Positions 6,237 to 28,153 of a stretch of DNA of 64,000 nucleotides are shown here, piece after piece. The stretch is from Burkholderiales bacterium 70-64. GTDB lineage: Bacteria; Pseudomonadota; Gammaproteobacteria; Burkholderiales; Burkholderiaceae_E. The position numbers and the translations under genes were made by a program. Below the pieces are notes generated by a model. That model did no database searches. It was not told the origin of the DNA and saw nothing but the letters and a program-made list of their open reading frames with translations. The stretch covers positions 1 to 64,000 of the forward strand of contig MKUQ01000040.1 in NCBI GenBank assembly GCA_001898645.1, given 5' to 3'. The stretch's first letter is position 1. Every line of letters begins with the position of its first letter.

Positions 6237-6279
6237 TGCCGATCCGGGATACCGCATGGGGCGAGGCGCCTCCTAGACT
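6237..6279 (+). promoter_or_regulatory. Predicted AraC/XylS-type promoter S1 (TGCC-N6-GGATA element plus -10)
   Basis: TGCCGATCCGGGATACC at 6237-6253 matches the TGC-N6-GGNTA half-site pattern of XylS/BenR-type activators. A -10-like TAGACT follows at 6274-6279, 20 bases after the element. The same arrangement occurs at 8963, 11951 and 28111. It would start transcription about 60 bases before the permease ATG. No good -35 hexamer is present, which fits activator dependence. Confidence 0.6.
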
Positions 6280-6346
6280 GGCCGCCGAAAGAGACCTCTC
6301 GTCTCTTTGCGCGTTCTCGTCCCGGCGCGTGCGGGAAAGCAGAGCC

Positions 6347-7819
6347 ATGGAAGCGATGAAGGATACGTTGGAGCGCCTCCGGGAGGCCGTCCCCGGCGGT
6401 TCGACCGAACTGCGCCGCGCCACTCTCGGCGCCGGATTCATCACGCTGCTGGTGATCTCGGCGGCCAGCCCGTTGAGCGTGGTCGCCGGCGGCTTCCCGC
6501 TCGGCATCATGCTCGGCAACGGCGCGGGCACCCCGTCGCTGGTGATCGTCGCGCTGGCCCTGTTGCTGCTGTTCGCCGCGGGGTACACCGCGATGGCGAC
6601 CTGCGTGACCAGCGCCGGCGGCTTCTATGCCATGGCCGCACGGGGGCTGGGCGGATCGGCAGGCGGCGTGACGGCCATGATCGCCGTCCTCGGCTACGTG
6701 GCGCTGCAGACGGGGCTCTACGGCCTGCTGGGCGCCGTGACTTCGGAAGCACTCCTGGCGCAGTTCGGCCTGAGCATCCCCTGGTGGAGCTGCGCCTTCG
6801 TCGCCATGGCCACCGTCGCCTGGTTCGGCTATCACCAGATCGACTTCTCGGCCAGGATCCTGGCGTGCTTCGTGGTCGCCGAGTACGCCGTCGTGCTGAC
6901 GCTGGATTTCCTGATCCTCGGGCACGGCGGCGCGCGGGGGATCGACTTCCATTCGTTCGCGCCGCAAGTGGTCTCGGGCGGCAATCCGTTCATCGGGCTG
7001 CTGTTCTGCTTCGCCGCCTTCATCGGGTTCGAAGCGACGACCATCTACGGCGAGGAAGCCAGGGATCCGAAGCGCAGCATCCCGATCGCCACCTACGCGG
7101 CGCTCCTGCTGGTGGGCGGCTTCTACTCCTTCTCCCTGTGGTGCCTGGTGCTCGGCGCCGGCAGCGACGCCGTGGTCGCCACGATCTCCGCGTTGAGCGA
7201 TCCGACCAACTTCATCTACACGATCTCCGACCGGTACGCCAGCCCGCACCTGACCATGGTGCTGCGCGGCATGTTCGTCATGAGCATCTACGCCGGCCTG
7301 GTCGCCTTCCACAACTCGACGGCGCGCTACTTCTTCTCGATGGGGCGCGAGGGCCTGCTGCCGTCGCCTCTCGGTCTAACCCATCCGCAGCACAAGAGTC
7401 CGCACGTCGCCTCGCTGTTCCAGACGCTGGTCTGCGCGACGCTGGTGACCTGCTTCGCGATGGCCGGAGCCGACCCCGTGCTGACGCTCTTCGCCTGGCT
7501 GAGCAACATGGCCACGCTGTGCGTGCTGGCCCTGATGATCGTCACCGCGATTGCGGTGATCGTCTTCTTCCGCGGCGGATCGCATGGGTACGGCGCCGGC
7601 AGGACCCTCTTCCTTCCGGCGCTGGCCTGCGCGGGGCTGTGCGCCGTGCTGGCGCTCGCTGCGGCGAATTTCCACGTGCTGACCGGCGCCAGCACGCGGA
7701 TCTCCATCGCCCTGGTGAGCCTCGTGCCCGTCGCCGGCGTCGCGGGCTGGCTGGCGGCCCGGCGGCTGCTGCAACGCGAACCCGCGCGCTATACGCGCCT
7801 CGGCCAGGATCGAAGCTAG
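6347..7819 (+). CDS. APC-family amino acid/amine permease
   Basis: This 490-residue integral membrane protein has about twelve hydrophobic segments. The APC signature is near the N-terminus: ATLGAGFITLLVISAASPLSVVAGGFPLGIMLGNGAGTP, followed by GGFYAMAARGLGG. The mid-protein GFEATTIYGEEARDPKRSIP is the conserved APC segment. ATG 6347 is chosen because the permease core starts shortly after it; the frame stays open 37 codons further upstream but over the promoter element. The likely role is proton- or cation-coupled uptake of an amino acid, polyamine or ethanolamine-like amine. It is related to the permease at 21417-22934 but clearly diverged from it. Confidence 0.85.
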   Translation: MEAMKDTLERLREAVPGGSTELRRATLGAGFITLLVISAASPLSVVAGGFPLGIMLGNGAGTPSLVIVALALLLLFAAGYTAMATCVTSAGGFYAMAARGLGGSAGGVTAMIAVLGYVALQTGLYGLLGAVTSEALLAQFGLSIPWWSCAFVAMATVAWFGYHQIDFSARILACFVVAEYAVVLTLDFLILGHGGARGIDFHSFAPQVVSGGNPFIGLLFCFAAFIGFEATTIYGEEARDPKRSIPIATYAALLLVGGFYSFSLWCLVLGAGSDAVVATISALSDPTNFIYTISDRYASPHLTMVLRGMFVMSIYAGLVAFHNSTARYFFSMGREGLLPSPLGLTHPQHKSPHVASLFQTLVCATLVTCFAMAGADPVLTLFAWLSNMATLCVLALMIVTAIAVIVFFRGGSHGYGAGRTLFLPALACAGLCAVLALAAANFHVLTGASTRISIALVSLVPVAGVAGWLAARRLLQREPARYTRLGQDRS

Positions 7820-7886
7820 CCTGAACGCGCTCGGGTCGCCGGGCAGCGCGCAGCCGTGCCGCAGGACGCGATGCTGCGCCGCCCGA

Positions 7887-8852
7887 TCACTGGAGCCAAG
7901 CGTCGGCGCGCCGGGTCTGGGACGGTAGCTCGCCGAACAGCTCCCGGTAGTCCACGGCGAAGTGGCTCAGGTGGAGAAACCCCCATCGGGCCGCGGCATC
8001 GCCGATCGGGAGTTTCGCGGAAGTCGTCGACATCAGCTCCCGGCGGACGCCGTTGAGCCGGATCGACCGGATGTAGTTCACCGGCGTCGTCTCGGCGACG
8101 CTGCGGAAGCTGTTCTGGACGGTACGCCGGCTGACGCGAAGACGCTGGCACAGCTCGATCACGTTGGGCGCGTTGGCGGCATCGAGGACGGTCATGCGGT
8201 GACACTTCTCGACGATGAAGCTGCGCAGCGAGCTGGGTTGGCGCTGGGTGCGGTCGCAGGCCGGATCGCTCAGCAACTGCAGGAGCTCCTCGAGCATGGC
8301 CTGCTCGAGCTGCCGTTCCCGGTCCGGCGAGCTCGTCATCTCGTCGTTGGCGAGCGATTCGGAAAACAGGGCCAGCAGGCGCCGGCGCGTCTCGGCGAGC
8401 CGGCGGACCGGCAGGCGGATCACCGGCTGCTTCATCAGGGTCGTGATCTCGGCCGTCCAGGGCGTGCTCGACAGGGCTTCCTCGAAGGCGCCGCGCTCGA
8501 ACGTGATCCCGAGCATGTCCATGTCCATCGGCATGTGGAACATGAACTCCTCGCCGCCGCGAAGCACGAAGATGCTGTTGTCGTCGGCCTCGCGTCCCTG
8601 CATCCGGATCGCTCCGGGAACCAGAAGCGGAACGGCAAAACACACCCTGCGCCGGGGCGCCTCGCCATGCTGCACGACGCGCTGGTTGATCTTCTCGCGA
8701 AAGACATGGAACCGGGGCGTGGCGACCTGCGCCAGCGAGCTGCTGACCGCTCCGGCCGTGATCTGGCTGTAGGTCTGCTTCCAGTCACGTACGGCAGACG
8801 CGTGGAGATGGACATCCTCGAAGCAATCGACCTTGAATCTACAGATCGACAT
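7887..8852 (-). CDS. AraC-family transcriptional regulator (EutR-like architecture)
   Basis: This protein of about 321 residues has an unclassified N-terminal sensing domain and a C-terminal AraC double helix-turn-helix (about residues 215-320; SRRTVQNSFRSVAETTPVNYIRSIRLNGVRREL, then IGDAAARWGFLHLSHFAVDYRELFGELPSQ). The start at 8852 (MSICRFK) is preferred because it aligns with the paralogue at 18687; seven more codons exist upstream. It shares FEDVHLHA, INQRVVQHGEAP and MQGREAD with that paralogue. It is read divergently from the aminotransferase gene. It is a candidate activator for the TGC-N6-GGNTA promoters described here. Confidence 0.85.
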   Translation of the reverse strand: MSICRFKVDCFEDVHLHASAVRDWKQTYSQITAGAVSSSLAQVATPRFHVFREKINQRVVQHGEAPRRRVCFAVPLLVPGAIRMQGREADDNSIFVLRGGEEFMFHMPMDMDMLGITFERGAFEEALSSTPWTAEITTLMKQPVIRLPVRRLAETRRRLLALFSESLANDEMTSSPDRERQLEQAMLEELLQLLSDPACDRTQRQPSSLRSFIVEKCHRMTVLDAANAPNVIELCQRLRVSRRTVQNSFRSVAETTPVNYIRSIRLNGVRRELMSTTSAKLPIGDAAARWGFLHLSHFAVDYRELFGELPSQTRRADAWLQ

Positions 8853-8962
8853 CGTCTCCCCCAAGCCATCCATTTATTCGAAGAATTATTGGGCACTGCT
8901 TCGAACGATCATACATCAGGCCAAACCCGATGGATCGCAGCCGGGCGCTGCGTCTTTCAGGG

Positions 8963-9005
8963 TGCTGATTTGGGCTAACGGATTCGCTGCGGTCGCGTCG
9001 AAACT
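8963..9005 (+). promoter_or_regulatory. Predicted AraC/XylS-type promoter S2
   Basis: TGCTGATTTGGGCTAAC at 8963-8979 fits TGC(C/T)-N6-GG(A/C)TA. GAAACT at 9000-9005, 20 bases downstream, is a weak -10 at the same spacing as in S1 and S4. It lies in the 238-base gap between the divergent AraC gene and the aminotransferase gene. The gap also has two TTCGAA palindromes at 8877-8882 and 8900-8905, of unknown meaning. Confidence 0.5.
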
Positions 9006-9090: not shown

Positions 9091-10434
9091 ATGACCTACG
9101 AGAACGCCCGCTTCTGGCATCCCATGATGCACCCGGCCGCCATGAAGGAGCGCAAGCCGCTGCGCATCGTGCGTGGCGAGGGGTGCCACGTCTTCGACGA
9201 TGCCGGCAACAAGTTCGTGGACGGTGTCGGCGGCCTGTGGAACGTCAACGTCGGCCACAACCGCCCCGAGATCAAGGCGGCCATCGTCAGGCAGCTCGAC
9301 CAGCTGGAGTATTTCCAGCTGTTCGACGGTGTCTCCAATCCTCCGGCCGAGGCGCTGTCCGCCCGGCTGGTCGAGGTGCTCGCGCCCGAGGCGATGAAGC
9401 GGGTGGTCTACGGCTCCAACGGCTCCGATGCGACCGAGACCGCGCTCAAGCTGGCGCGCCAGTACTGGAAGGTGCTGGGCCAGAAGGACCGCACCAAGTT
9501 CATCTCGCTGAAGGAGGGCTACCACGGCAGCCACTTCCTCAGCGCTTCGGTCAACGGCAACGCCGTCTTCCGCCGCAACTACGAGCCCCTGATGCCCGGC
9601 TGCTTCCAGGTGCAGAACCCCTGGGTGTACCGCAACCCGTTCACTCACGACCCCGAGGAGCTCTCGGAGCTGTGCGCAAGGATGCTCGAGCGCGAGATCG
9701 AGTTCCAGGGGCCGGACACCGTGGCCGCCTTCATCGCCGAGCCGGTGCAGGGCGCCGGCGGCGTGATCGTGCCGCCGGCCAGCTTCTGGCCCAAGGTCCG
9801 CGCGATCTGCGACAAGCATGGCGTGCTGCTGGTCGCCGACGAGGTGGTCACGGGGTTCGGGCGCACCGGCAGCCTGTTCGGCGCGCGTGCCTGGGGCGTC
9901 AAGCCCGACTTCATGTGCTTCGCCAAGGGGCTGTCATCGGGCTACGTGCCGCTGGCAGCCACCGCGTTCAACGGGCGCGTGGCCGAGGCATTCGAGACCA
10001 ATGCGGATGCCAGCGGCCTGGTCATGCACGGCTACACCTATGCGGGGCACCCGGTGGGGTGCGCGGCAGCCCTCGCCAGCCTGGACATCGTGCTCGAGGA
10101 AGACCTGCCCGGCAACGCCGGCCGGCAGGGCGCCCACCTGCTCGAGGCGCTGCAGCCCTTCGTCGATCGCCATGCGTCGATCGGCGAAGTGCGCGGCAAG
10201 GGCCTGATGCTGGCCATCGACCTGGTCAACGACAAGAAGACCCGCGAGTCGATCGACCCGACGTCGGGCTACGCCTACGCGGTGGCCGAGGCGGCGCGCC
10301 GCCACGGCGCCATCGTGCGCCCGGTGGGCACCAAGATCATCCTGTCGCCCCCGCTCGTGATCCAGCGCCCCGAGATCGACCGCATCGTGGCCGCGCTCGA
10401 CGCCGCGTTCGAGGAAGTTCCGTTCACCCGCTGA
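9091..10434 (+). CDS. Class III (omega) aminotransferase, PLP-dependent
   Basis: This 447-residue enzyme matches class III omega-amino acid:pyruvate aminotransferases. It has GLWNVNVGHNRPEI near the N-terminus, YGSNGSDATETALKLARQYW for phosphate binding, DEVVTGFGRTG, and the PLP lysine Lys279 in FAKGLSSGY. It should transfer an amino group from an amine or omega-amino acid to a keto acid, giving an aldehyde that the next gene's dehydrogenase could oxidise. ATG 9091 follows CGGAGACCC; the frame stays open 86 codons upstream but covers the promoter region and lacks homology. It lies 40 bases before the aldehyde dehydrogenase gene and is surely co-transcribed with it. Confidence 0.9.
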   Translation: MTYENARFWHPMMHPAAMKERKPLRIVRGEGCHVFDDAGNKFVDGVGGLWNVNVGHNRPEIKAAIVRQLDQLEYFQLFDGVSNPPAEALSARLVEVLAPEAMKRVVYGSNGSDATETALKLARQYWKVLGQKDRTKFISLKEGYHGSHFLSASVNGNAVFRRNYEPLMPGCFQVQNPWVYRNPFTHDPEELSELCARMLEREIEFQGPDTVAAFIAEPVQGAGGVIVPPASFWPKVRAICDKHGVLLVADEVVTGFGRTGSLFGARAWGVKPDFMCFAKGLSSGYVPLAATAFNGRVAEAFETNADASGLVMHGYTYAGHPVGCAAALASLDIVLEEDLPGNAGRQGAHLLEALQPFVDRHASIGEVRGKGLMLAIDLVNDKKTRESIDPTSGYAYAVAEAARRHGAIVRPVGTKIILSPPLVIQRPEIDRIVAALDAAFEEVPFTR

Positions 10435-10474: not shown

Positions 10475-11929
10475 ATGACCCAGCACCTGAAGCACTTCAT
10501 CGAGGGCGCGCACGTCGAAGCGTCCGACGGCGCCCGCATGAGCCTCGTGAATCCCGTCGACGAGCAGGAGTACGCCACGGCCGCGCGCGGCACCGCCGAG
10601 GACGTCGAGCATGCCGTCGCGGCGGCCCGGGCGCAGCTCGACGGCGGCGCCTGGAGCAGGCTCGGCGGTGCCCAGCGCGGCCTGCTGCTGAGCAGGCTGG
10701 CCGACCTGGTCGAGCGCGACGCCGAGCGGCTGGCGGACATGGACGCCACGGCCATCGGGCGCTCGCCGATGGAGCCGCGCATGATGGACGTGCCCAACGC
10801 GGTGGCCAACCTGCGCGCCGCCGCCGGCTGGGCCAACCAGATCGAGGGGCGCACCATCCCCACCGGCGGCTACATGGGCGTCAGGACGCTGTCGTACACG
10901 GTGCGCGAGCCCGTTGGCGTGGTCGGCGCCATCGTGCCGTGGAACGCCCCGTTGATGATCACGACGTGGAAGGTGGCCGCACTGCTCGCCGCCGGCTGCA
11001 CGGTCGTCATCAAGCCCTCGGAGGAGACGCCGCAGTCGGCGCTGCACCTGGCCGTGCTGTGCCAGGAGGCGGGCCTGCCCGACGGCGTGGTCAACGTCGT
11101 CACCGGCTACGGCGAAATGGTGGGGCGAGCCCTGTGCGCGCATCGCGACGTCGCCAAGATCAGCTTCACCGGCAGCCCGGAAGCGGGGCAGGCCATCCAG
11201 CGCATCGCCGGCCCGCTGTTCAAGCGCGTGACGCTGGAGCTGGGCGGCAAGAGCCCGCAAATCGTGTTCGACGATGCCCCCTTCGAGGATGCGGTGCGCG
11301 GCTGCGCGCTCGGCCTGTTCATCAACCAGGGTCAGGTCTGCGCGGCGGGATCGCGCATCCTGGTGCAGCGGGGCATCGCCCCGCGCTTTGCCGCGGCGCT
11401 GGCCGAGGCGGCCGGCGCCGTCACGGTGGGCGATCCCCGCCAGCCCGGCGTGCAGATGGGGCCGCTGGCCAAGAAGGCCCAGTTCGAGCGCGTCAACCGC
11501 TACATCCAGCTCGGCCTCGACGAAGGGGCGCGGCTGCTGGCAGGCGGAGTGGCGCGCCCCGGGCGCGGCTGGTTCGTCACGCCCACGATCTTCGCCGACG
11601 CCACCAACGAGATGACCATCGCCCGCGAGGAGATCTTCGGACCGGTGGGCACGATCATCGAGTTCGACTCGGAGGAAGAAGCCGTCGCGCTGGCCAACGA
11701 TTCCGACTACGGCCTGGCCGCCACGGTGTGGACCACCCACCTCGCCCGCGCCCACCGCGTGGCCGGCGCAGTCAGGGCCGGCGCGATCGGCGTGAACTGC
11801 TGGAGCCCGCTGGACGCCAACCTGCCCTGGGGCGGCGTGAAGACCAGCGGCATCGGCCGCGAAGGCGGCCTCGCCGGCGCCCTCGCCTACACCGAAGAGA
11901 AGGTCGTCACCGTCCTGCTGCCTTCCTGA
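10475..11929 (+). CDS. NAD(P)+-dependent aldehyde dehydrogenase
   Basis: This 484-residue protein is a standard aldehyde dehydrogenase. It has PWNAPLMITTWKVAALLAAGCTVVIKPSE for cofactor binding, the general base Glu255 in LELGGKSP, and the catalytic Cys289 in NQGQVCAAGSR. EEIFGPVG and the C-terminal WGGVKTSGIGREGG complete the family pattern. It probably oxidises the aldehyde produced by the adjacent aminotransferase. A gap-containing inverted repeat overlaps its stop codon (11926-11949) and may weakly insulate it from the S3 promoter. Confidence 0.9.
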   Translation: MTQHLKHFIEGAHVEASDGARMSLVNPVDEQEYATAARGTAEDVEHAVAAARAQLDGGAWSRLGGAQRGLLLSRLADLVERDAERLADMDATAIGRSPMEPRMMDVPNAVANLRAAAGWANQIEGRTIPTGGYMGVRTLSYTVREPVGVVGAIVPWNAPLMITTWKVAALLAAGCTVVIKPSEETPQSALHLAVLCQEAGLPDGVVNVVTGYGEMVGRALCAHRDVAKISFTGSPEAGQAIQRIAGPLFKRVTLELGGKSPQIVFDDAPFEDAVRGCALGLFINQGQVCAAGSRILVQRGIAPRFAAALAEAAGAVTVGDPRQPGVQMGPLAKKAQFERVNRYIQLGLDEGARLLAGGVARPGRGWFVTPTIFADATNEMTIAREEIFGPVGTIIEFDSEEEAVALANDSDYGLAATVWTTHLARAHRVAGAVRAGAIGVNCWSPLDANLPWGGVKTSGIGREGGLAGALAYTEEKVVTVLLPS

Positions 11930-11950: not shown

Positions 11951-11992
11951 TGCCGATCTCGGATACCGGTTCCGGGTCGGCACCACTAAATT
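11951..11992 (+). promoter_or_regulatory. Predicted AraC/XylS-type promoter S3
   Basis: TGCCGATCTCGGATACC at 11951-11967 differs from S1 at only two positions. TAAATT at 11987-11992 lies 19 bases downstream and serves as a -10. It precedes the DUF1329 gene by about 95 bases and should drive the five-gene envelope operon. Confidence 0.6.
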
Positions 11993-12087: not shown

Positions 12088-13491
12088 ATGACCACGAGCA
12101 GCCCGCGAACCACGCTCATCGCGCGAACGACCCTGGCGGCGGCCCTCGTCGCCTGCCTGCTCGGCATCGACCATCCGGCCGTCGCCGCCGACCTGGCGCA
12201 ACTGGACAAGCTCACTCCGTCGGGCGCGGAGAAGGAAGGCAGCAAGGACGGGACCATCCCGGCCTGGCAAGGCGCCGAGCCGCCCCTGCCCGGCTGGGAA
12301 TGGGGCAAGCTGCGCCGCGACTACTGGAAGCACAAGGACGAGAAGCCGCTGTTCACGATCGATGCATCCAACGTCGACAAGTACGCCGGCAAGCTCTCGG
12401 CCGGCCAGGTGGCCATGGTCAAGCAGCGCAAGGGCTACCGCATGGACGTCTATCCGTCGCACCGCACCTGCGGCGTGCCGGACTTCGTCGCCGGCAACAC
12501 CAGGAAGAACCTCGGCACCGCCAGGCTCAACGATGACGGCTGGAGCCTGAAGGAAGCGACGGTTCCCGGCTACCCCTTCCCCATCCCGTCCACCGGCGTC
12601 GAGGCGATGTGGAACGCCAAGATGCGCTATCGCGGCGTGGGCATCGACTTCAAGAACCTGATCGTGGCCGTGTCACCGCGGCGCGGCAGCAGCGAATGGA
12701 TCCGCGCAGGTACCGAGCAGACACTTTACTTTCCCTGGGGAGCAAAGGGATCGAATCAGCTGTCGTCGTTCCCGCCGGTCGAGTTCTATACCTACTTCGC
12801 CTACGTCTCGCCGACGGCGCTGGCCGGCCAGGCCCTGGCCATCACTCAGTACCTGAACCAGGCGGAGAACGAGACCTTCTACTACTTCCCCGGCCAGCGC
12901 CGCGTGCGCCGCATGCCGACCTATTCGCACGATGCGCCCCAGATCGGCATGGAGAACCAGTACACGCTCGACGAGCCCAACGTCTTCAACGGCGCGCTGG
13001 ATCGCTTCGACTGGAAGCTGGTGGGCAAGAAGGAGATGTACGTCCCCTACAACGCCTTCGGTGCCTACGACTTCCAGGCCAGGTTCGAGGACGTCGCGCG
13101 CGACGACTTCATCGTGCAGAGCCACCGGCGCTACGAGCTGCACCGAGTGTGGGTGATCGAGGCCACCGTGAAGGCCGGCATGCGGCACTCGACGCCCAAG
13201 CGCACCGTCTACCTCGACGAGGACAGCTGGGCACCGGTGCTGATGGACGACTTCGACGGACAGAGCTCGCTCGTGAAGATGCGCGAAGGCTTCCTCGTCC
13301 CCGTCTACGAGACCGGCACCTGCGACGTCATGGCGATGGTGCAGAACAACCTGGCCGAAGGCCGCTACGTGGTGGACTCGCACGCCATCGGCGCCGGCAA
13401 GGACATCCGCTGGGTCACCGAGGCCAGCGGCCCGAGGATGCGATCGAGCTTCTACACGGCCGACAACCTGCGCACCATCAGCGAGCGCTGA
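12088..13491 (+). CDS. DUF1329 periplasmic protein (LolA-like superfamily)
   Basis: This 467-residue protein has a cleavable signal peptide (residues 1-34, ending AVAAD) and then the full DUF1329 pattern: LTPSGAEKEGSKDGTIPAWQG, KGYRMDVYPSHRTCGVPDFVAGNTRKN, YYFPGQRRVRRMPTYSHDAPQIG and KRTVYLDEDSWAPVLMDDFDGQ. DUF1329 proteins belong to the lipoprotein-carrier (LolA-like) fold group, are found next to DUF1302 barrels and MMPL transporters, and are thought to act in envelope lipid or hydrophobe traffic. Its own cargo is unknown. CAGGAGACCAC is the ribosome site. A paralogue is encoded at 26581-27951. Confidence 0.85.
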   Translation: MTTSSPRTTLIARTTLAAALVACLLGIDHPAVAADLAQLDKLTPSGAEKEGSKDGTIPAWQGAEPPLPGWEWGKLRRDYWKHKDEKPLFTIDASNVDKYAGKLSAGQVAMVKQRKGYRMDVYPSHRTCGVPDFVAGNTRKNLGTARLNDDGWSLKEATVPGYPFPIPSTGVEAMWNAKMRYRGVGIDFKNLIVAVSPRRGSSEWIRAGTEQTLYFPWGAKGSNQLSSFPPVEFYTYFAYVSPTALAGQALAITQYLNQAENETFYYFPGQRRVRRMPTYSHDAPQIGMENQYTLDEPNVFNGALDRFDWKLVGKKEMYVPYNAFGAYDFQARFEDVARDDFIVQSHRRYELHRVWVIEATVKAGMRHSTPKRTVYLDEDSWAPVLMDDFDGQSSLVKMREGFLVPVYETGTCDVMAMVQNNLAEGRYVVDSHAIGAGKDIRWVTEASGPRMRSSFYTADNLRTISER

Positions 13492-13542: not shown

Positions 13543-15198
13543 ATGATCGGAGCCGATTCGTTTCCGGCACGCGCGGCGGCAGCCGCCGCCTGCGCCCTGC
13601 TCGGCGCAGGCACGGCCCAGGCCATGACCTTCGAGTTCGAGAACGTGCGCGGCAATTTCGACTCGACCATCACGGTGGGCACGGGCATCCGCGCCAAGAG
13701 CCCGTCCTGTGGCCTGATCACGGCCGGCGCCAGCGGCGCAGGCGCGCCTGCGGGATGCCTGGCCCCGACGTCGGCCATGGGCGACCAGGGCAACCTGAAC
13801 TACGCCAGGGGCGACGCCTTCACCACCTACATCAAGGGCAGCCACGAGCTGCTGTTGAAGATGCCCGACGACCTGACCTTCCTCGGCCGGGTCAACTGGA
13901 TGAAGGACTTCACCGCCACCGATACCACCGGCTACATCAGCGCGACGACCCCTCCGTCGCTGACCGACGGCCTCGCCGACGATGCGCGCAGGGACCTGCG
14001 CTTCAAGGCGCGCCTGCTCGACCTGTGGGTGAGCAAGTCGTTCCAGCTGGGCGAGGAAACCGCACGCGTGCGCGTCGGCAACCAGGTCATCAGCTGGGGC
14101 GAGAGTCTGTTCCTGCCCGGCGGCATCAACAGCATCAATGCCGTCGACGTGATGCGCCTGTCCCAGCCCGGCACGCAGCTCAAGGAAGTGTTCCTGCCGG
14201 CACCGATGGCCAGCTTCGCCACCGGGCTCGGCCACGGCCTGAACTTCGAGGCCTACGTGCAGGCGCGCTGGAATGCCAACTACATGCCGCCGTCGGGCAG
14301 CTTCTGGTCCGTCGCCAACGGCATGGGCAAGGGCCACGATGCCTACGGCCTGGCCGAGGTCGAACCCAGGAAGAACGGCGGCCAGTGGGGCGCCGCGCTG
14401 CGCTGGCAACCGGCCGGCACGCAGGTGAATCTCGGCGCGTACGTGATGAACTACCATGACAAGGCGCCGAACTTCAGCGTCGATGCGGGCGGCACCGGCC
14501 AACCGGGATGGGCCTACGCAGAGGATCGCCGCCTGTACGGGATCAGCGCCAACATGCCGATCGGCGACTGGGCGGTCGGCACCGAGCTGTCCTACCGCCC
14601 GAGGGATGCCGTGGCGCTCAACCCCGCCGTCAGCGGCTGCGCCTCGCAGAACGGCAACTGCTGGGTCGACGAGAAGAAGTTCCAGTGGCACCTGACCGGC
14701 CTGCTCAGCCTGACGCCCAGCAACGGCGCCCGCGTGCTCGAACTGCTGGGCGCGGACACGGCGACCCTGATGCTCGAGTCGGTGGTGGTGCGCTATCCGG
14801 GCCTCAAGCAGTTCTACGACGGCGACCCCATCGCGGCCGGCGGCTGGGGCTGGGGGCAGGAGTTCGATCCCACGGCAGCGCCGGTTCCCAAGGGCACCAG
14901 GACGTCCTGGGGGTTCAACCTCGACTTCAGCTGGGTCTACGACGGCACGCTGATCCCGGGCTGGCAGGTGATCCCCGAGATCTACTATTTCCAGGCCGTC
15001 AAGGGCCGTACCCCGAACGCCGCCGGCCAGTTCATGGAAGGCGCCAAATCGGTCAACCTGATCGTGACGTTCATGCAGAACCCCGCGACCTGGCAGGCGT
15101 CGATCAACTACGCCGCCTTCTTCGGCGGCAAGAGCGTGCTCGACCAGCCGTACCGCGACCGCAACTTCGTTGGCCTGACCCTGTCGCGCAACTTCTGA
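13543..15198 (+). CDS. DUF1302 outer-membrane beta-barrel protein
   Basis: This 551-residue protein has a signal peptide (residues 1-27, ending AQAM). It then shows alternating, aromatic-rich strands ending in NFVGLTLSRNF, a C-terminal Phe typical of outer-membrane barrels. NQVISWGESLFLPGGIN and AVDVMRLSQPGTQLKE are diagnostic for DUF1302. Two Cys-bearing loops (SCGLITAG near residue 50; CASQNGNCW near residue 366) could form extracellular disulphides. It follows the DUF1329 gene by 51 bases with CGAGGAGACC as ribosome site. It probably forms the outer-membrane channel or receptor of the envelope system. The paralogue at 19628-21271 looks about three-quarters identical. Confidence 0.88.
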   Translation: MIGADSFPARAAAAAACALLGAGTAQAMTFEFENVRGNFDSTITVGTGIRAKSPSCGLITAGASGAGAPAGCLAPTSAMGDQGNLNYARGDAFTTYIKGSHELLLKMPDDLTFLGRVNWMKDFTATDTTGYISATTPPSLTDGLADDARRDLRFKARLLDLWVSKSFQLGEETARVRVGNQVISWGESLFLPGGINSINAVDVMRLSQPGTQLKEVFLPAPMASFATGLGHGLNFEAYVQARWNANYMPPSGSFWSVANGMGKGHDAYGLAEVEPRKNGGQWGAALRWQPAGTQVNLGAYVMNYHDKAPNFSVDAGGTGQPGWAYAEDRRLYGISANMPIGDWAVGTELSYRPRDAVALNPAVSGCASQNGNCWVDEKKFQWHLTGLLSLTPSNGARVLELLGADTATLMLESVVVRYPGLKQFYDGDPIAAGGWGWGQEFDPTAAPVPKGTRTSWGFNLDFSWVYDGTLIPGWQVIPEIYYFQAVKGRTPNAAGQFMEGAKSVNLIVTFMQNPATWQASINYAAFFGGKSVLDQPYRDRNFVGLTLSRNF

Positions 15199-15206
15199 GC
15201 GGATCG

Positions 15207-15250: not shown

Positions 15251-17638
15251 GTGCCTGCATCCTCCGACAACGGGTCGGCCCTGCTGCGCGCCGTCCACCG
15301 CTTCGAGACGTTCGCCTTCTCCAACCGGAGGGCCGTGCTCGCCGTCATGGCCGTCTTCACGCTGGCCATGGGGTACTTCGCGATCCAGCTGCGCATGGAT
15401 GCCGGCTTCGACAAGCAGATGCCCGTCGGCCACGAATACATCCAGACCTTCCAGACCTATCGCGAGGACGTGCTCGGCGCCAACCGGCTCAACATCGTCG
15501 TCAAGGCCCGCCGGGGCAGCATCTGGAACGCGGCGGCGCTCGAGCGCCTCTACGACGTCACCCAGGCCGTCACCTTCCTGCCCAACATCGAGCGGCTCGG
15601 GGTGCAGTCGCTGTGGACGCCCAACAGCTTCGTCAACGAGATCACCGAGGAGGGGTTTCGCGCCGACCCGCTGATCGACGCCACCATCACGCCCGGGCAG
15701 CTCACCGACGAAACCGTCGCCGACATCCGGCGCGCTGCCGCGCAGGGCGGCTTCGTCGGCACGCTGGTCTCGCGCGACGAAACCGCTGCGATGATCACCG
15801 CCGAGCTGATCGAGTACGACGCCCAAGGCGCCAAGCTCGACTACATCGACTACAACCACCTCCTCGAGGAACGCATCCGCTCGAAGTTCGAGGACGCCGA
15901 CTTCGAGATCCAGATCATCGGCTTCGCCAAGCAGATCGGCGACATCGCCGACGGCGCGCAGTCGGTCCTGAAGTTCTGCGCGATCGCCCTGCTGCTCACC
16001 GCCGCCGCGGTGTACTGGTACTGCCGCTCGCTGCGCTTCACCCTGCTGGCGATCGCCTGCTCGCTGACCTCGCTGGTGTGGCAGTTCGGCACGCTGCGCC
16101 TGCTCGGCTTCGGGCTGGATCCGCTGGCCGTGCTGGTGCCCTTCCTGGTGTTCGCGATCGGCGTCTCGCACGGCGTGCAGCAGATCAACTACATCGTGCG
16201 GCGGATCTCCTACGGGCAGTCCAACTTCGACGCCTGCCGCGACAGCTTCACCGGCCTGCTGATCCCGGGGACGCTGGCGCTCGTGACGGCCTTCGTCTCC
16301 TTCGTCACCCTGCTGCTGATCCCGATCCCCATGGTCCGCGAGCTCGCCATCGCGGCCTCGCTCGGCGTGGCCTACAAGATCGTCACCAACCTGGTGATGC
16401 TGCCCGTGGCCGCCTCCTTCTTCGACGTGAGCAAGGACTACGCCGACCAGGCGGTGGTCCAGCGCGAGCGGCGCTCCGGCTGGCTGCGCGTGCTGGCCAA
16501 GGTCGCCGAGCCGCGCAATGCGCTGCTCATGCTGGCCGTGACCGCGACCGTCTTCGCGGCCGCCGCCTGGCAGAGCCGCGACCGCGTGGTCGGCACCCTG
16601 CAGCCCGGGGCGCCCGAGCTGCGCGAGGACGCACGCTTCAACCGCGACGCCGTGGCCATCTCGAGCAACTTCGACACCGGGCTCGATTGGCTGACCGTGA
16701 TCTTCGAGGCTCCGCCCGACAGCTGCGAGAACGTCAACATCGGCCTCTACCAGGACCGCTTCACCTGGGCCATGCACCCCGTCGAAGGCGTGCTCTCGGT
16801 GGCGTCCTATTCCGGCCAGCTGCGGCTCTACAACGAGGGCTACAACGAGGGCAACCCCAAGATGAGCGTGGTGCCGATCGACCCCGGCAACTACGCCGCG
16901 CTGTCGACCGAGATCGCCCGCATCCGCGGCACGATGCGCAAGGACTGCAGCATGACCGCGGTCAACCTCTTCCTCACCGACCACAAGGCGACGACGATCC
17001 AGCGGGTGATCGATGCCGTCAAGGAGTTCCGCGGCAGGAACACGCTGCCCGGCGTGAGCATCCGGCTGGCCTCGGGCAATGCCGGCGTGCTCGCGGCGAT
17101 CGACGACGAGGTGGAGAAGAGCGAGCTGCCGATGATGCTGTACGTCTACGCGGCGATCGTGGTCCTGGTGTTCCTGGTCTACCGCGACCTGCGCGCCGTG
17201 ATCGCCTGCTGCCTGCCGCTGACGGTGGGCACATTCGTCGGCTACTGGTTCATGAAGGAGCTGCAGATCGGCCTCACGGTGGCGACGCTGCCGGTGATGG
17301 TGCTGGCGGTGGGCATCGGGGTGGACTATGCCTTCTACATCTACAACCGCCTGCTGCTGCACATGGCCGCCGGGCAGCCGATCGTGAAGTCGATCGAGCA
17401 CGCGCTCCTCGAGGTCGGCATGGCGACCATCTTCACCGCGATCACGCTGGCGATCGGCGTGGCCACCTGGTCGTTCTCGCAGCTCAAGTTCCAGGCCGAC
17501 ATGGGCAAGCTGCTGGCCTTCATGTTCATGGTGAACATGGTGATGGCGATGACCGCGCTGCCCGCCATGGCCGTGTGGCTCGAGAAGCTCTTTCCGCGCC
17601 GCCGTCCGGTGCGGGCGACCGGCCTTCAACATCACTGA
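15251..17638 (+). CDS. MMPL/RND-superfamily transporter
   Basis: This 795-residue inner-membrane protein has one N-terminal membrane helix (about residues 24-44), a periplasmic loop, and five clustered helices near residues 235-400 (VLKFCAIALLLTAAAVYW, ..LAVLVPFLVFAIGVSHGVQQINY..). A second loop and a second helix cluster (about 630-785, with VATLPVMVLAVGIGVDYAFYIYNR) follow. The duplicated layout and the GxGVDYAFY segment are typical of MMPL/RND exporters, which move hydrophobic or lipid-like molecules using the proton gradient. GTG 15251 is the start, with AAAGG just upstream. No membrane-fusion protein gene is present; the neighbouring DUF1329/DUF1302/YCF48 proteins probably replace it. 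Confidence 0.85.
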   Translation: MPASSDNGSALLRAVHRFETFAFSNRRAVLAVMAVFTLAMGYFAIQLRMDAGFDKQMPVGHEYIQTFQTYREDVLGANRLNIVVKARRGSIWNAAALERLYDVTQAVTFLPNIERLGVQSLWTPNSFVNEITEEGFRADPLIDATITPGQLTDETVADIRRAAAQGGFVGTLVSRDETAAMITAELIEYDAQGAKLDYIDYNHLLEERIRSKFEDADFEIQIIGFAKQIGDIADGAQSVLKFCAIALLLTAAAVYWYCRSLRFTLLAIACSLTSLVWQFGTLRLLGFGLDPLAVLVPFLVFAIGVSHGVQQINYIVRRISYGQSNFDACRDSFTGLLIPGTLALVTAFVSFVTLLLIPIPMVRELAIAASLGVAYKIVTNLVMLPVAASFFDVSKDYADQAVVQRERRSGWLRVLAKVAEPRNALLMLAVTATVFAAAAWQSRDRVVGTLQPGAPELREDARFNRDAVAISSNFDTGLDWLTVIFEAPPDSCENVNIGLYQDRFTWAMHPVEGVLSVASYSGQLRLYNEGYNEGNPKMSVVPIDPGNYAALSTEIARIRGTMRKDCSMTAVNLFLTDHKATTIQRVIDAVKEFRGRNTLPGVSIRLASGNAGVLAAIDDEVEKSELPMMLYVYAAIVVLVFLVYRDLRAVIACCLPLTVGTFVGYWFMKELQIGLTVATLPVMVLAVGIGVDYAFYIYNRLLLHMAAGQPIVKSIEHALLEVGMATIFTAITLAIGVATWSFSQLKFQADMGKLLAFMFMVNMVMAMTALPAMAVWLEKLFPRRRPVRATGLQHH

Positions 17639-17648: not shown

Positions 17649-18656
17649 ATGAAGACCGCGCTCTCCACTCTCGCCCTCGCCTGCCAGCTCGCCCTGGCGG
17701 CACCCTGGGCCGCCCAGGCCGCCCGCGATGCCGATGCGGTGCCGCAGGCGCCCATCGCCGCGCCGGCGGCGCGCGTGCCGCACGCCGCCCAGGCGGCCAT
17801 GCTCGCGAGCGTGCGCGCGGGATCGCGCATCGTGGCCGTCGGCGACCACGGCGTGGTGCTGCTGTCGGACGACGGCGGAAAGACCCACCGGCAGGCGCAG
17901 CAGGTGCCGGTGGACGTGACCCTGACCTCGGTGTCCTTCGTCGACGAGCGCCGCGGATGGGCCGTCGGCCACTGGGGCGTGGTGCTGAACACTGTCGACG
18001 GCGGCGAGACCTGGCGCGTCCAGCGCAGCGACACGCACGAGGACCGGCCCCTGTTCGCCGTGCACTTCTTCGACGCGAGCCAGGGCGTCGCGGTCGGCCT
18101 GTGGTCCCTGGTGCTGGTGACCTCCGACGGCGGCGCCCACTGGCAGGCTGTGGAAATGCCGGCACCCGAGGGCGCCCGGCGCGCCGACCTCAACCTGCTG
18201 GGCCTGTTCGCCGACGCCCGCGGCCGCCTCTTCGCGCCCGCCGAACGGGGCATGGTGCTGCGCTCCGACGACCGCGGGCAGCACTGGCGCTACCTGGGCA
18301 CCGGGTACACGGGATCGTTCTGGACCGGCATCGCCGCACCGGACGGAGCCCTGCTGGTGGCCGGCCTGCGCGGCTCGATGTACCGCAGCGGCGACGACGG
18401 GCAGACGTGGCAGCGCATCGACACCCACAGCAAGTCGTCGATCACGGCGCTCGCGCTCGCCGGTGCCGGCATCGTCGGCGTCGGGCTGGACGGACTCATG
18501 CTGCGCAGCAGGGACGGCGGCGTCTCGTTCGAGACCGAGATACGCACCGACCGCCTGCCGCTGACCGCCGTGACGCTCGACGGCGAGGGCCATCCGGTCA
18601 TGTACTCCCGGCAAGGGATCGTCAAGGCCGAGGGCGCCGGCGCCTCGGGCAGGTGA
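17649..18656 (+). CDS. YCF48/BNR-repeat beta-propeller periplasmic protein
   Basis: This 335-residue protein has a signal peptide (residues 1-26, ending AQAAR). About six Asp-box-like repeats follow: SDDGGKT, TVDGGETW, TSDGGAHW, RSDDRGQHW, RSGDDGQTW and RSRDGGVSF, spaced 40-50 residues apart. This is the beta-propeller architecture of YCF48/HCF136-like photosystem assembly factors, which recur next to MMPL and DUF1302 genes in non-photosynthetic bacteria. A scaffold or assembly role for the envelope transporter is inferred. The start lies 10 bases after the transporter stop. Confidence 0.82.
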   Translation: MKTALSTLALACQLALAAPWAAQAARDADAVPQAPIAAPAARVPHAAQAAMLASVRAGSRIVAVGDHGVVLLSDDGGKTHRQAQQVPVDVTLTSVSFVDERRGWAVGHWGVVLNTVDGGETWRVQRSDTHEDRPLFAVHFFDASQGVAVGLWSLVLVTSDGGAHWQAVEMPAPEGARRADLNLLGLFADARGRLFAPAERGMVLRSDDRGQHWRYLGTGYTGSFWTGIAAPDGALLVAGLRGSMYRSGDDGQTWQRIDTHSKSSITALALAGAGIVGVGLDGLMLRSRDGGVSFETEIRTDRLPLTAVTLDGEGHPVMYSRQGIVKAEGAGASGR

Positions 18657-18672: not shown

Positions 18673-18690
18673 ATGCGTCGTCTTCCGTGA
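18673..18690 (+). other. Possible 5-codon leader peptide overlapping the AraC start
   Basis: After AAGAGAGGCGCCC, a good ribosome site, ATG 18673 opens the frame MRRLP and stops at TGA 18688-18690. That stop overlaps the GTG start of the AraC gene in GTGA. The regulator's own GTG has no ribosome site of its own, so termination-reinitiation on this minicistron could set its translation. Expression of the leader is inferred. Confidence 0.35.
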
Positions 18691-19631
18691 AGTGCCAGAC
18701 CAAGAGCTTCGAGGACGTACATCTGCACGCGGCGGCCGTGCGCGGCTGGAATCAGACCTATAGCCAGCTCACCCGCGGCTCGCTGAAGAGCAGGTTGTCC
18801 GAGCTCAGGGGATCACGGGTGGAGATCCTCTGGGAACAGCTGAACCAGCGCGTCGTGCAGCATGGCGAAGCGCCGATGGGCAGGATAGGCATCGCGATCC
18901 CGATCGTGGTTCCCGGCACGGCCCGCATGCAGGGGCGCGAAGCGGACGGCAGCAGCCTCTACATCCTGAGAGGCGGCGACGAATTCATGTTCCACACGCC
19001 GGCGGGCATGGAAATGCTGGCCTGCACCTTCGATCGCGAGCTCTTTCAAGAGGCCGTCTCGCGAACCGCCGCGCCCGAGGTGATCGGCAGCTTGCTGAGC
19101 CATCCGGTGGTGAAGATCGCGCCGCGGCGCCTGGCGGAGTGCCGGGACCGGATCCTGGCGCTGTTCGCGACATTCCCCCTGAATGCCGAGGTGGCCGACT
19201 GCAGCGATGCGGAACAGAGGCTCGAACGCGGCCTGCTTCACGAGTTGCTGAGCCTCGTCAGCGATTCGAGTTGCAACTCTCCGCGGCGCCCGAGCAGCTC
19301 CTGCGGCAGTTTCATGGTCGACAAGTGCCATCGCCTCACGATCGGCAACGCATCGAACCCGCCTTCCGTGCTCGACTTGTGCCGGCATCTGCGCTCGAGC
19401 CGCCGCGCCATACAACGAGGGTTCCGCAGTGTTGCCAACACCACGCCGGTCAACTACATCCGCTCGATTCGCCTGAATGCCGTGCGGCGGGAGCTCATCA
19501 ATTCCCGCGCATCGGATGCGTCGATCGGCGACATCGCAGCGAAGTGGGGGTTCTTCCACCTCAGTCACTTCGCATCCGAGTACCGAACGCTGTTCGGCGA
19601 GCTGCCGTCGCAGACCAGGCGTAAACGTTAG
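18687..19631 (+). CDS. AraC-family transcriptional regulator, paralogue of 7887-8852
   Basis: This 314-residue regulator has a C-terminal AraC DNA-binding domain (about residues 205-312; SRRAIQRGFRSVANTTPVNYIRSIRLNAVRREL and IGDIAAKWGFFHLSHFASEYRTLFGELPSQ). The N-terminal domain shares SFEDVHLHAA, QRVVQHGEAP and MQGREADGS with the regulator at 7887-8852. GTG 18687 is chosen because the alignment with that paralogue begins at the next residue. It ends the DUF1329-DUF1302-MMPL-YCF48 operon, a position that suggests positive feedback through promoter S3. It overlaps the convergent DUF1302 gene by four bases. Confidence 0.85.
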   Translation: MKCQTKSFEDVHLHAAAVRGWNQTYSQLTRGSLKSRLSELRGSRVEILWEQLNQRVVQHGEAPMGRIGIAIPIVVPGTARMQGREADGSSLYILRGGDEFMFHTPAGMEMLACTFDRELFQEAVSRTAAPEVIGSLLSHPVVKIAPRRLAECRDRILALFATFPLNAEVADCSDAEQRLERGLLHELLSLVSDSSCNSPRRPSSSCGSFMVDKCHRLTIGNASNPPSVLDLCRHLRSSRRAIQRGFRSVANTTPVNYIRSIRLNAVRRELINSRASDASIGDIAAKWGFFHLSHFASEYRTLFGELPSQTRRKR

Positions 19632-24241: not shown

Positions 24242-24245
24242 GTCT

Positions 24246-25301: not shown

Positions 25302-26554
25302 CACCGGCTCTCGCACCCTTGCGGCACATCCCGGAGCACCTCTTCGCCGAGAACATGCCCGCGTCTGGCGACTCCCTCGAGAATCTCGGCGGCGTTGTCC
25401 AGGTCGGTGACGCGCCGCACGCCGCGCTGCGGAATCCGGCCTCTCCCCATCGCGAGCACGTACTCGACCGGGGTGTTGCCGATGGAGCTGTAGACCGCCG
25501 GCCAGGCCCAGGGCAAATGCCGCCGCGTCGACTCCAACGTGGTGATGGACCAGTTTCTGCTGGTGCATGGCCGACCATCCATCGTGCCCCTGACCTCGAT
25601 GACCACCGTGAAGTGATCGTCCCTGATCTTTCCTTCCCGCAGGAGGCGCGGATATTCGGTCGGGAGTACGAACGCCTCGGCCATGGCCTCGACGATGCTC
25701 GTCTCCGTGCGCGCATGGCCTTGCTTCTCGCAGGCTCTTGCGAGCGCCTTTATCCAGATCTCCGCGGTGTCCAGGCGGCCGAGCCCCAGGGCCATCTTGG
25801 ACTCGAGGCGGCGAATCGACTTGCCGGCGAAATCGGGAATCATCGCGATGTCGCCGAGCACGTTCATGGTGTAGACGCGCCGCTTTCCCGCCGGGCCCGG
25901 AAACTCGTAGTCTTCCGCGCTGGCGAGCAGGTCCACGGTCGTGAGCACGCCTCCCAGGTTGGCCAGAGGACCCGGAGGCCCGAAGAACATCGACATCTGG
26001 ACGATGGGCGCGACGGGTGCGATGAACTCGTCGGTATCGATGTGCGCACAGCAGTAGAACAGCACCTCGTCGACGGTTTCCATGCCGTCGATGGCGCGCT
26101 TTACGACGAGGCTGCTCCATCCGCCGGCCAGCCCGACATACGGAATGGCGAGCGCACCGGCCTGCCTGAACGCATCGTCCAGCTCCAGCTGAGCGGAGTA
26201 AGTCTCTTCTTTCGGGGTACCGGACGCATCCGGCAGGGCCAGCAGATCGGTGTAATGCACCGCCTCCCGAACGCATGCCTTCATGATCGGGATGTTGAAC
26301 TTCGGAAGTATGGCGTTGACGGCGACGTCCGCGCCGGAGATCAGGCGCGCCACGTCATCGACATCGGCGGCATCGACTCGACGACAGGCGATCCTTCCGA
26401 TGTCGGCACCGGCAGAGGACAACGTGCCGTGCGCTTGATCCAGGGCACGAACGTCATGGTCGGCCAGCACAATGTCGTCGACGTCGCGTTCGCGGACGAG
26501 CAAGTCCGCCAATCCCGTGCCTTGACCGCCGGCACCTATGATCACGACCTTCAC
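25301..26554 (-). CDS. Saccharopine-dehydrogenase-family oxidoreductase
   Basis: This 417-residue protein starts with KVVIIGAGGQGTGLADLLVRERDVDDIVLADHD, the NAD(P)-binding fold of saccharopine/carboxynorspermidine/lysine-6-dehydrogenase relatives. VDAADVDDVARLISGADVAVNAILPKFNIPIMKACVREAVHYTDLL is the conserved second block, and YVGLAGGWSSLVVKRAID the third. Such enzymes form or split a C-N bond between an amino acid and a 2-oxo acid or semialdehyde. It lies 26 bases after the DUF1329 gene and is tightly coupled to the next reductase. With the opine-dehydrogenase homologue at 3103 it gives the locus two secondary-amine-type enzymes. Confidence 0.75.
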   Translation of the reverse strand: MKVVIIGAGGQGTGLADLLVRERDVDDIVLADHDVRALDQAHGTLSSAGADIGRIACRRVDAADVDDVARLISGADVAVNAILPKFNIPIMKACVREAVHYTDLLALPDASGTPKEETYSAQLELDDAFRQAGALAIPYVGLAGGWSSLVVKRAIDGMETVDEVLFYCCAHIDTDEFIAPVAPIVQMSMFFGPPGPLANLGGVLTTVDLLASAEDYEFPGPAGKRRVYTMNVLGDIAMIPDFAGKSIRRLESKMALGLGRLDTAEIWIKALARACEKQGHARTETSIVEAMAEAFVLPTEYPRLLREGKIRDDHFTVVIEVRGTMDGRPCTSRNWSITTLESTRRHLPWAWPAVYSSIGNTPVEYVLAMGRGRIPQRGVRRVTDLDNAAEILEGVARRGHVLGEEVLRDVPQGCESR

Positions 26555-26580
26555 GGGCGACTCCTCTGATCAGGAGCTGT

Positions 26581-27951
26581 TCAACGTGAGCTGATCGCTC
26601 GCAGATTCTCGGCGGTATAGAAGCCGGACTTGAATCGAGGGCCATCCGACTCGACGACCCAGCGAATGTCCTTGCCGCCGCCTATGGGATGTCCATCGAA
26701 GAGGTACCGCCCCTCTCCCAGGTTGTACTGGACGAGCGCAGAGACGTCGCAGGTACCCGTTTCATAGACGGGAATCAGGTAGCCCTCGCGGTACTTCACC
26801 AAGCGACCCTGGGCGTCGTGGTCCTCGGCCATGACGAGGTTCCAGCTGTCTTCATCGAAGTAGAAGCTCCGTTTCGGAGCGTTGTGGCGCACTCCCTGCT
26901 TGAGACTCGCCTCGACGACCCAGATCCGATGCAGCTCGTAGCGGCGGTTTGCCGGATTGATGGAATCCTCCCGGGCAACCTCCTCGATATTCGCCGTGAA
27001 GTCATACATGCCGAACGAGTTGTAGGGGATGTAGATCTCCTTCTTGCCGACGATCTTCCAATCGAACCGGTCCATCGATCCGTTGAAGAGCCAGGCCTCA
27101 TCCATCGTGTATTGGTTCTCCGTCCCGATCTGCGGGGCATCGTAGGCGTAGGACGGCATGCGCCTGACCCTTCGTTGTCCGGGGAAGTAGTAGAAGACCT
27201 CGTTTCCGGGCTGGTCGAGAAAGACGGACACGGATATCGCCTGCCCCGCCTGAGCTGCGGGCGCGACGAAGGCGAAGTAGGCATAGGACTCCACCTGCGG
27301 CAGCTTGCTCAGGAAGTTCGAGCCCTTGGCACCCCAGGGATAGAAGACCGTCTGCTCGACAATCGATCTATACCATTCGGTGCTGCCGCGACGCGGCGAC
27401 AACGCGAAGATGAGCTTCGGGTAGTCGACACCGAGGCCGCGGTAACGCATCTTGGCGTTCCACATGACCTCCGCGCCGTTCGCCGGGAAGGGGAAGGGAT
27501 AGCCGGGCACGACGGCCTCTTTCAGGCTCCAGCCGTCCGCTCCGAGCTTCGCGACGCCAACGTTCTTCCTGGTGTTCTCGGCCACGAAGTCCGGTATTCC
27601 GCAACCCCGGTGGGAAGGGTAGACGTCCATGCGGTAACCCTTGATCTGCCTGATTGCCGCGATCTGGCCGGGCGTCAACTTCTGCGCATGCTTGTCGACG
27701 TTGGTCGCGTCGATCGAGAACAGCGGTTTCTCGCCCTTGTACTTCCACGCGTCGCCGCGACTCTTGCCGTAGGTCCAACCCGTTTCCGCGCTCTCGTGCC
27801 CATTCCACCGCGGAATGCTGCCTTCCTTGTTCGCCCCTGCCTCCGCACCGGAAGGAGTCAGATCCTTCCCGAGGCGCGTGATGTCCTGCGCTGCGGCGAG
27901 ATGCAATACGGCAGCGGCAGCAGCGGCAATTGCAAACCGATACGTCTTCAT
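26581..27951 (-). CDS. DUF1329 periplasmic protein, second copy
   Basis: This 456-residue protein has a signal peptide (MKTYRFAIAAAAAAVLHLAAA-QD). It then shows the same ordered blocks as the copy at 12088: LTPSGAEAGANKEGSIPRWNG, KGYRMDVYPSHRGCGIPDFVAENTRKN, YYFPGQRRVRRMPSYAYDAPQIG and KRSFYFDEDSWNLVMAEDHDAQ. ATG 27951 is preferred, with GGAGG upstream; nine extra codons are possible. It heads a six-gene - strand cluster whose promoter may be S5. In the + strand module the partner DUF1302 gene is adjacent, whereas here three enzyme genes and a permease gene lie between them. Confidence 0.85.
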   Translation of the reverse strand: MKTYRFAIAAAAAAVLHLAAAQDITRLGKDLTPSGAEAGANKEGSIPRWNGHESAETGWTYGKSRGDAWKYKGEKPLFSIDATNVDKHAQKLTPGQIAAIRQIKGYRMDVYPSHRGCGIPDFVAENTRKNVGVAKLGADGWSLKEAVVPGYPFPFPANGAEVMWNAKMRYRGLGVDYPKLIFALSPRRGSTEWYRSIVEQTVFYPWGAKGSNFLSKLPQVESYAYFAFVAPAAQAGQAISVSVFLDQPGNEVFYYFPGQRRVRRMPSYAYDAPQIGTENQYTMDEAWLFNGSMDRFDWKIVGKKEIYIPYNSFGMYDFTANIEEVAREDSINPANRRYELHRIWVVEASLKQGVRHNAPKRSFYFDEDSWNLVMAEDHDAQGRLVKYREGYLIPVYETGTCDVSALVQYNLGEGRYLFDGHPIGGGKDIRWVVESDGPRFKSGFYTAENLRAISSR

Positions 27952-28025
27952 TCGCCAATATCCTCCGCGTACGGACACTCAAGCCGAGAGCGCGCTCGAA
28001 ACCGAAAGCATCGCCTCGGCACGGA

Positions 28026-28068
28026 AGTGTGTTGCAGGCGGATCGGCGGCCAGTAGCCCAAATTGGAC
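28026..28068 (-). promoter_or_regulatory. Possible AraC/XylS-type promoter S5 (divergent partner of S4)
   Basis: On the - strand, GTCCAATTTGGGCTACT (28068 to 28052) keeps the GGCTA half and the ATTTG spacer of S2 but has lost the leading TGC. CACACT lies 20 bases further on, at the -10 position of the other elements. It would drive the DUF1329 operon starting at 27951. Because half the site is degenerate, this call is tentative. Confidence 0.35.
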
Positions 28069-28110
28069 TGTTGCACTGCGGCAAGGTCGCCCGGCATCTG
28101 CGGAGCGCTA

Positions 28111-28153
28111 TGCCAAATCCGGCTAACTCCGGCCCGGAGTCGCGACATAGAGT
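28111..28153 (+). promoter_or_regulatory. Predicted AraC/XylS-type promoter S4
   Basis: TGCCAAATCCGGCTAAC at 28111-28127 fits TGCC-N6-GGCTA, and TAGAGT at 28148-28153 is 20 bases downstream. The start of transcription would fall near 28160, leaving a short leader before the flavoprotein ATG at 28183. Confidence 0.55.

Follow-up and report, generated by a model that had tools for sequence, protein, structure and literature searches.

We analysed a 64,000-nucleotide stretch of the genome of Burkholderiales bacterium 70-64 (contig MKUQ01000040.1, positions 1 to 64,000; the window in what follows), in which a 17-base promoter element recurs at four sites. In its full form, TGCYGATTYGGGMTAMC-N20-NANNNT, the element is also present upstream of orthologous genes in other Proteobacteria. 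Very probably it serves a clade of EutR-like AraC activators as operator, and these would switch on an amine-catabolic gene set in this genome. AraC_A, AraC_B and AraC_D are encoded in the window and AraC_C elsewhere in the genome, on C20. The evidence consists of the conserved sequence, its spacing, its promoter position, synteny and co-occurrence with an AraC gene; from these we infer binding, activation, action from a single site and an amine signal.

Probable operator sites in the window and in other genomes

We searched both strands of the whole window with the pattern TGCY-N6-GGMTA, which matched exactly four times, always on the + strand. An earlier reading of this DNA (the sequence-only reading) had reported four such sites, each followed after 19-20 bases by a -10-like hexamer, and this proved correct in every coordinate. 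All four lie upstream of the gene starts as placed here (ATG at 6347, 9091, 12088 and 28183). The sites, their hexamers and a possible fifth site are as follows:

6237..6253, + strand: operator site 1, TGCCGATCCGGGATACC, before the amino acid permease gene; 25.3 bits, expected by chance 3e-4
6274..6279, + strand: -10-like hexamer TAGACT, N20 from site 1
8963..8979, + strand: operator site 2, TGCTGATTTGGGCTAAC, divergent from AraC_A and before the aminotransferase-aldehyde dehydrogenase (ALDH) unit; 30.7 bits, expected by chance 2e-6
9000..9005, + strand: -10-like hexamer GAAACT, N20 from site 2
11951..11967, + strand: operator site 3, TGCCGATCTCGGATACC, before the DUF1329 gene; 22.8 bits, expected by chance 1e-3
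11987..11992, + strand: -10-like hexamer TAAATT, N19 from site 3
28111..28127, + strand: operator site 4, TGCCAAATCCGGCTAAC, before the spermidine dehydrogenase (SpdH)-like gene, the weakest of the four; 16.4 bits, expected by chance 0.026
28148..28153, + strand: -10-like hexamer TAGAGT, N20 from site 4
28052..28068, - strand: possible fifth site, GTCCAATTTGGGCTACT, followed after N20 by CACACT (28026-28031) and facing DUF1329b (26581-27978)

Dinucleotide shuffles of the window (n = 100) contained a mean of 0.70 matches to the search pattern, and one shuffle reached four. Since this pattern had been drawn after the sites were known, the independent test was made with a matrix whose training set, 52 non-redundant sites, came entirely from other species. 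Its top four positions in the window are the same four sites, and the next-best score is 5.8 bits. Matrices with permuted columns found 0 to 5 positions in the window that exceed 6 bits, compared with 4 for the real matrix, so the number of matches alone is not decisive and the score gap is. Sites of at least 16 bits occurred in 2 of 50 Markov-1 copies of the window. The fifth site scored 4.7 + 4.1 bits by the matrix, and its 17-mer is expected 2.3 times by chance; alone it is at chance level and is only suggestive as a member of the regulon.

For relatives, we used 59 AraC_A-like loci from one scan, 1.16 Mb in total. They contain 87 matches to TGCYN6GGMTAMC and 9 to the reversed pattern. A tighter pattern, TGCYRATYYSGGMTAMC, has 84 exact matches in 41 of the 46 whole genomes from these loci, which were thus preselected for holding AraC_A, and its control has none. 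The positions that the pattern leaves free are conserved among 57 non-redundant sites (G5 in 46, T7 in 55, T8 in 46 and G10 in 50), and so is the -10 (A in 48, T in 49); the A at position 6 was demanded by the filter and is no evidence of conservation. Of the 83 sites that the 59 loci contain, 78 are followed at N19-20 by a hexamer whose second base is A and whose last is T; since the sites share descent, this count is not a probability. At shifted windows the same hexamer was found in 0 to 20 of the 83 sites, apart from the overlapping shift by one, which gives 75. These counts, the independent matrix scores and the -10 spacing argue against a chance likeness of GC-rich intergenic sequence, for which the one shuffle with four matches and the two Markov copies with a 16-bit site may be cited. 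We consider such a likeness of negligible probability: it is practically refuted for sites 1-3, and site 4 alone keeps its expected number of 0.026.

Within 600 bases of AraC_A, at least one site is found in 55 of the 59 loci (divergently upstream in 52, downstream in 6). The four loci with no such site include L044, which starts 200 bases before the gene, and L070, which has a one-letter variant. The element precedes orthologues of the ALDH (81-84% identity), DUF1329 (80-85%), aminotransferase (85-88%) and permease (35-77%) genes, and Paraburkholderia L083 keeps the window's order of aminotransferase, ALDH, DUF1329, DUF1302 and MMPL. It is also found in Pseudomonas before another class III aminotransferase gene divergent from AraC_A, and before chemoreceptor genes in other Proteobacteria. 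At L114, L115 and L130, paired back-to-back elements about 60 bases apart lie between a permease gene and a PotF-like or DapA-like gene.

Co-occurrence with the regulator was assessed in 298 Pseudomonas genomes that were not preselected for AraC_A. The element matched in 64 of them, against 3 matches for the control. AraC matches at 1e-60 were present in 33 genomes, of which the 30 below 1e-120 were counted as AraC_A. The element occurred in 29 of these 30 and in 35 of the 268 others (Fisher p 2e-21, kinship ignored). We examined 20 of those 35 over 4-6.5 kb: 18 have neither an A2/T6 -10 at N19-20 nor an AraC of the clade, and in the remaining two the -10 is present and a EutR-like AraC of 36-37% identity adjoins. 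In six Pseudomonas genomes (L173-L177 and L184), a 319-codon open reading frame is preceded, at 136-139 bases, by TGCTGATTTGGGATAAC or by a form that differs from it in one letter, with no -10 and no AraC nearby.

Among 74 genomes of the window's own family, 16 have a match (control, 1 match). Outside the genome itself there are 19 family sites, of which 15 have an A2/T6 -10 (14 at N20, one at N19). An AraC_C or AraC_D relative adjoins 11 of these 15 within 3 kb, compared with none of the four sites that lack the -10. In one family genome (L208, G069), a C/D-like copy of the element lies before a TrpB-like gene; its N20 hexamer is TATGCT, and there is no AraC of the clade within the 3 kb examined.

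The AraC_C relatives in eight other genomes of the genus (L019-L024, L203 and L210) are divergent from TGCC[GA][AT]TTTCGGCTAAC-N20-TAGAAT. In four of the eight, a Pfam scan identified the gene behind the element as an amine dehydrogenase heavy chain (Me-amine-dh_H, 143-147 bits); the other four genes are similar at their starts. A comparison of one of these heavy chains with solved structures gave aromatic amine dehydrogenase as the best match (2h3x, E 2e-88), with methylamine dehydrogenase at 6e-34. Relatives of AraC_D adjoin the element in two genomes, G002 and G003; in both, a further heavy-chain gene of this type follows the element elsewhere on that contig, at a distance of 11.5-12.7 kb.

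In the whole genome of Burkholderiales bacterium 70-64, TGCYN6GGMTAMC matches eight times, four of them in the window (reversed-pattern control, 3). The tighter TGCYRATYYSGGMTAMC has five exact matches, namely sites 1-3, C20 and C22, and four more with one mismatch, namely site 4 and three that lack a -10 at N20. The C20 site, with TAGAAT at N20, precedes a NorB/COX1-type quinol nitric oxide (NO) reductase gene and is divergent from AraC_C; the C22 site, with TAGACT at N20, precedes a chemoreceptor gene with 4HB, HAMP and MCP domains. The regulon would extend beyond the window to these two genes. The remaining outside matches, C14 and C36, have no GAT middle. A crude coding test called 5 of 6 promoter sites coding-like and was not used, because long open reading frames run upstream of true starts and make promoter sites look coding-like. 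At C20:70777-74320 (L015), AraC_C is divergent from the quinol NO reductase gene, and its eight genus relatives are divergent from the amine dehydrogenase heavy-chain-like gene; behind the element beside those eight, we found no match to an NO reductase. The target has apparently been swapped while the operator was kept.

Comparison with XylS/BenR and EutR, and candidate readers

The sequence-only reading had identified the element as one of the XylS/BenR type. In a true regulon of this type, a XylS-like dimer responsive to an aromatic acid would occupy two TGCA-N6-GGNTA half-sites in tandem. The element shares with the XylS/Pm and BenR operators the N6 spacing, an identical box B (GGNTA) and an AraC-type reader. 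Counted from an assumed transcription start 7 bases beyond the hexamer, the 15 bases of the core lie at -49 to -35, the place of the proximal XylS half-site. The best match anywhere upstream averages 4.45, versus 2.30 in mononucleotide shuffles, and exceeds 6 bits in 9 of 55 promoters, versus 11.7%, so a loose second contact is possible. A module of DUF1302, PF07044, COG1033 and COG4447 also stands under the aromatic regulators AphS, AphR and AphT (PMC6449761).

Other features set the element apart. The XylS Pm operator is described as two 15-base direct repeats (PMC5481539) and BenR sites as repeated (PMC6449761). Here, none of 55 promoters has a second half-site above 5 bits at -20, -21 or -22, on which ground we rejected the tandem architecture; at -21, about where a direct repeat would lie, TGC occurs in 2 of the 55 and GGNTA in 1. 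The four window sites have N6 followed by GGNTA, and position 4 of box A is C or T, never A. Both features were imposed by the search pattern in relatives, which are thus no test of TGCA. The middle of the element is conserved, the best NCBIfam model for the AraC proteins is EutR, and the targets are amine genes. Together these features leave the XylS/BenR identity of the element unsupported, and a regulon of that type is very unlikely.

The EutR model (NF007522) is the best for AraC_A (127.4 bits), AraC_B (122.7), AraC_C (197.5) and AraC_D (115.9), all below its cut-off of 319, so none of them qualifies as a EutR equivalog. The likeness to EutR regulators extends to the amine theme and to a site just upstream of the -35, where EutR reportedly binds (PMC5821096). 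None of the adjoining genes scanned (3103 to 30793) reaches the cut-off of a eut model, and the permease matches the ethanolamine permease model weakly (30.6 bits, cut-off 381.75). The 292 bases upstream of E. coli K-12 eutS contain no core match; a box A-like stretch, TGCCGA, is present. The clade that very probably reads the element is closest to EutR rather than to XylS/BenR, which leaves the sequence-only reading partly right.

AraC_A, AraC_B and AraC_D carry the C-terminal double helix-turn-helix (HTH_18) of AraC family activators. The sequence-only reading had two AraC proteins, A and B, control one regulon. Its core, a shared element linked to AraC, was upheld; its pair of readers is incomplete, given AraC_D at 30804-31865 and AraC_C on C20, and we rejected A and B as the full account since, in other genomes, the element is also found next to relatives of C and D. 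AraC_D (or C) might be the main reader of the sites, or an additional one, with overlapping targets, in a cross-talk network rather than a single regulon. This alternative is unlikely but deserves serious weight. The C relatives in eight genus genomes and the D relatives in two speak for it, as do recognition helices that look alike among the AraC proteins and the C at position 10 of site 3, which C-relative sites share. However, AraC_A is what adjoins the window's target set in the 59 loci, and sites in front of DUF1329 genes next to AraC_A can likewise have a C at position 10 (L036, L046 and L047). A regulator of another family is a highly improbable reader: IclR genes lie near AraC_A in L029 and L068, but the element also adjoins AraC_C, AraC_D and the AraC genes of 36-37% identity amid other gene sets.

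Several results weigh against the element as an operator through which AraC_A and its relatives control the amine set. (i) L025 and L080 have no site within 600 bases of AraC_A. (ii) SpdH-like relatives were found in 3 of 369 genomes, this one included, and in the other two nothing in the stretch examined scores more than 2 bits. The expectation that the element would recur before orthologous genes thus held for the permease, aminotransferase, ALDH and DUF1329 genes and failed for the SpdH-like gene in the two relatives found; site 4 is the weakest member, with no support from relatives. (iii) No AraC_B orthologue was found in the 59 AraC_A loci, which leaves position and likeness as the grounds for its role. 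In a tree, AraC_B stands alone within the A clade on a long branch, a placement without resolution. (iv) The element is found beside relatives of C and D as well, so the sequence does not tell which reader goes with which target. A shared operator code is well supported, and the pairing of A, B and D with individual promoters does not. (v) Matches to TGCYRATYYSGGMTAMC with up to two mismatches are common in the genome (72, versus 16 for the reversed pattern), so weak members of the regulon cannot be called.

Proposed mechanism, function and gene content

The genes of the window that bear on function are the following:

6347..7819, + strand: APC amino acid permease (AA_permease), behind site 1
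7887..8873, - strand: AraC_A, EutR-like AraC protein (HTH_18), divergent from site 2
9091..10434, + strand: class III aminotransferase; PRK07481 model 767.5 bits, cut-off 575
10475..11929, + strand: ALDH; best model phenylacetaldehyde dehydrogenase StyD, 658 bits, cut-off 800
12088..13491, + strand: DUF1329 protein a, behind site 3
13543..15198, + strand: DUF1302 protein a, DUF1329 unit
15251..17638, + strand: MMPL/RND transporter, DUF1329 unit
17649..18656, + strand: YCF48-like (PSII_BNR) protein, DUF1329 unit
18687..19631, + strand: AraC_B, last gene of the DUF1329 unit; 55% identity to AraC_A
28183..30186, + strand: spermidine dehydrogenase-like flavoprotein; PDB SpdH 7d9i, E 4e-55
30804..31865, - strand: AraC_D, EutR-like AraC (HTH_18), further candidate reader

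Activation from a single site is known for other AraC proteins. We favour this mode here, at the edge of the -35 region. One AraC protein would contact box A (TGCYGAT) and box B (GGGMTAMC) through its pair of helix-turn-helix units. From there, bordering the missing -35 region, it would recruit RNA polymerase to a weak -10 that lies 20 (or 19) bases downstream. AraC_A would turn on the catabolic set, and AraC_B, which ends the DUF1329 unit, may be a feedback copy. The route would run from uptake by the permease, through transamination or dehydrogenation to an aldehyde, to oxidation by the StyD-like ALDH; the outer-membrane and RND module, and the chemoreceptor elsewhere in the genome, would belong to the same set.

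An amine is the likely substrate, given the APC permease, class III aminotransferase, ALDH, SpdH-like protein and, in relatives, the PotF-like protein. The aromatic amine dehydrogenase-like genes behind the element and StyD as the best model of the ALDH suggest an aromatic amine, for example phenylethylamine or tyramine, as the signal. More broadly and more tentatively, on a view that we think somewhat less probable than its contrary, EutR-like paralogues A-D (about 30-55% identical) could have kept one 17-base operator, 20 bases from the -10 and cross-readable, across (probably aromatic) amine routes. These routes would be aminotransferase plus StyD-like ALDH with A, and aromatic amine dehydrogenase with C relatives; the operator would wire together amine catabolism, the DUF1329/DUF1302/MMPL module, chemotaxis and the quinol NO reductase.

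Two described systems resemble this gene set. PMC6449761 describes DUF1302, PF07044, COG1033 and COG4447 as a module whose genes are regulated together within aromatic regulons of Betaproteobacteria, and proposes that it helps against toxic aromatics and solvent stress. The four gene families are identical here, whereas the operator is of AraC type and accompanied by amine genes, in place of AphS, AphR or AphT. The Pseudomonas hin histamine cluster (PMC8231116) has a similar permease, aminotransferase and aldehyde dehydrogenase, but its regulator is the LysR-type HinK and not an AraC protein.

We found no description of this operator in the literature searched, which comprised mainly titles, the starts of abstracts and a few passages, with subscription papers largely outside; at listing level, nothing on AraC proteins with phenylethylamine, amine catabolism or NO reductase fitted. 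An AraC-controlled catabolic regulon is a known kind, to which this operator appears to be a new addition. For an AraC clade that is uncharacterised and present in many soil and plant-associated Proteobacteria, it supplies an operator that can be tested and whose spacing is exactly defined. It also assigns the DUF1329-DUF1302-MMPL-YCF48 module, which is poorly understood, to an amine regulon, and is a natural case of paralogous regulators that apparently share one operator.

Two observations concern neighbouring genes. A cytochrome b561 gene adjoins the ALDH gene at L029:6219-6848 and L036:7541-8155, and none is named among the window genes scanned. Within the window, a second DUF1302 gene (19628-21595) and a second DUF1329 gene (26581-27978) flank a stretch of minus-strand genes (19628-27978), which includes ATC hydrolase-like and 2,4-diaminopentanoate dehydrogenase-like proteins.

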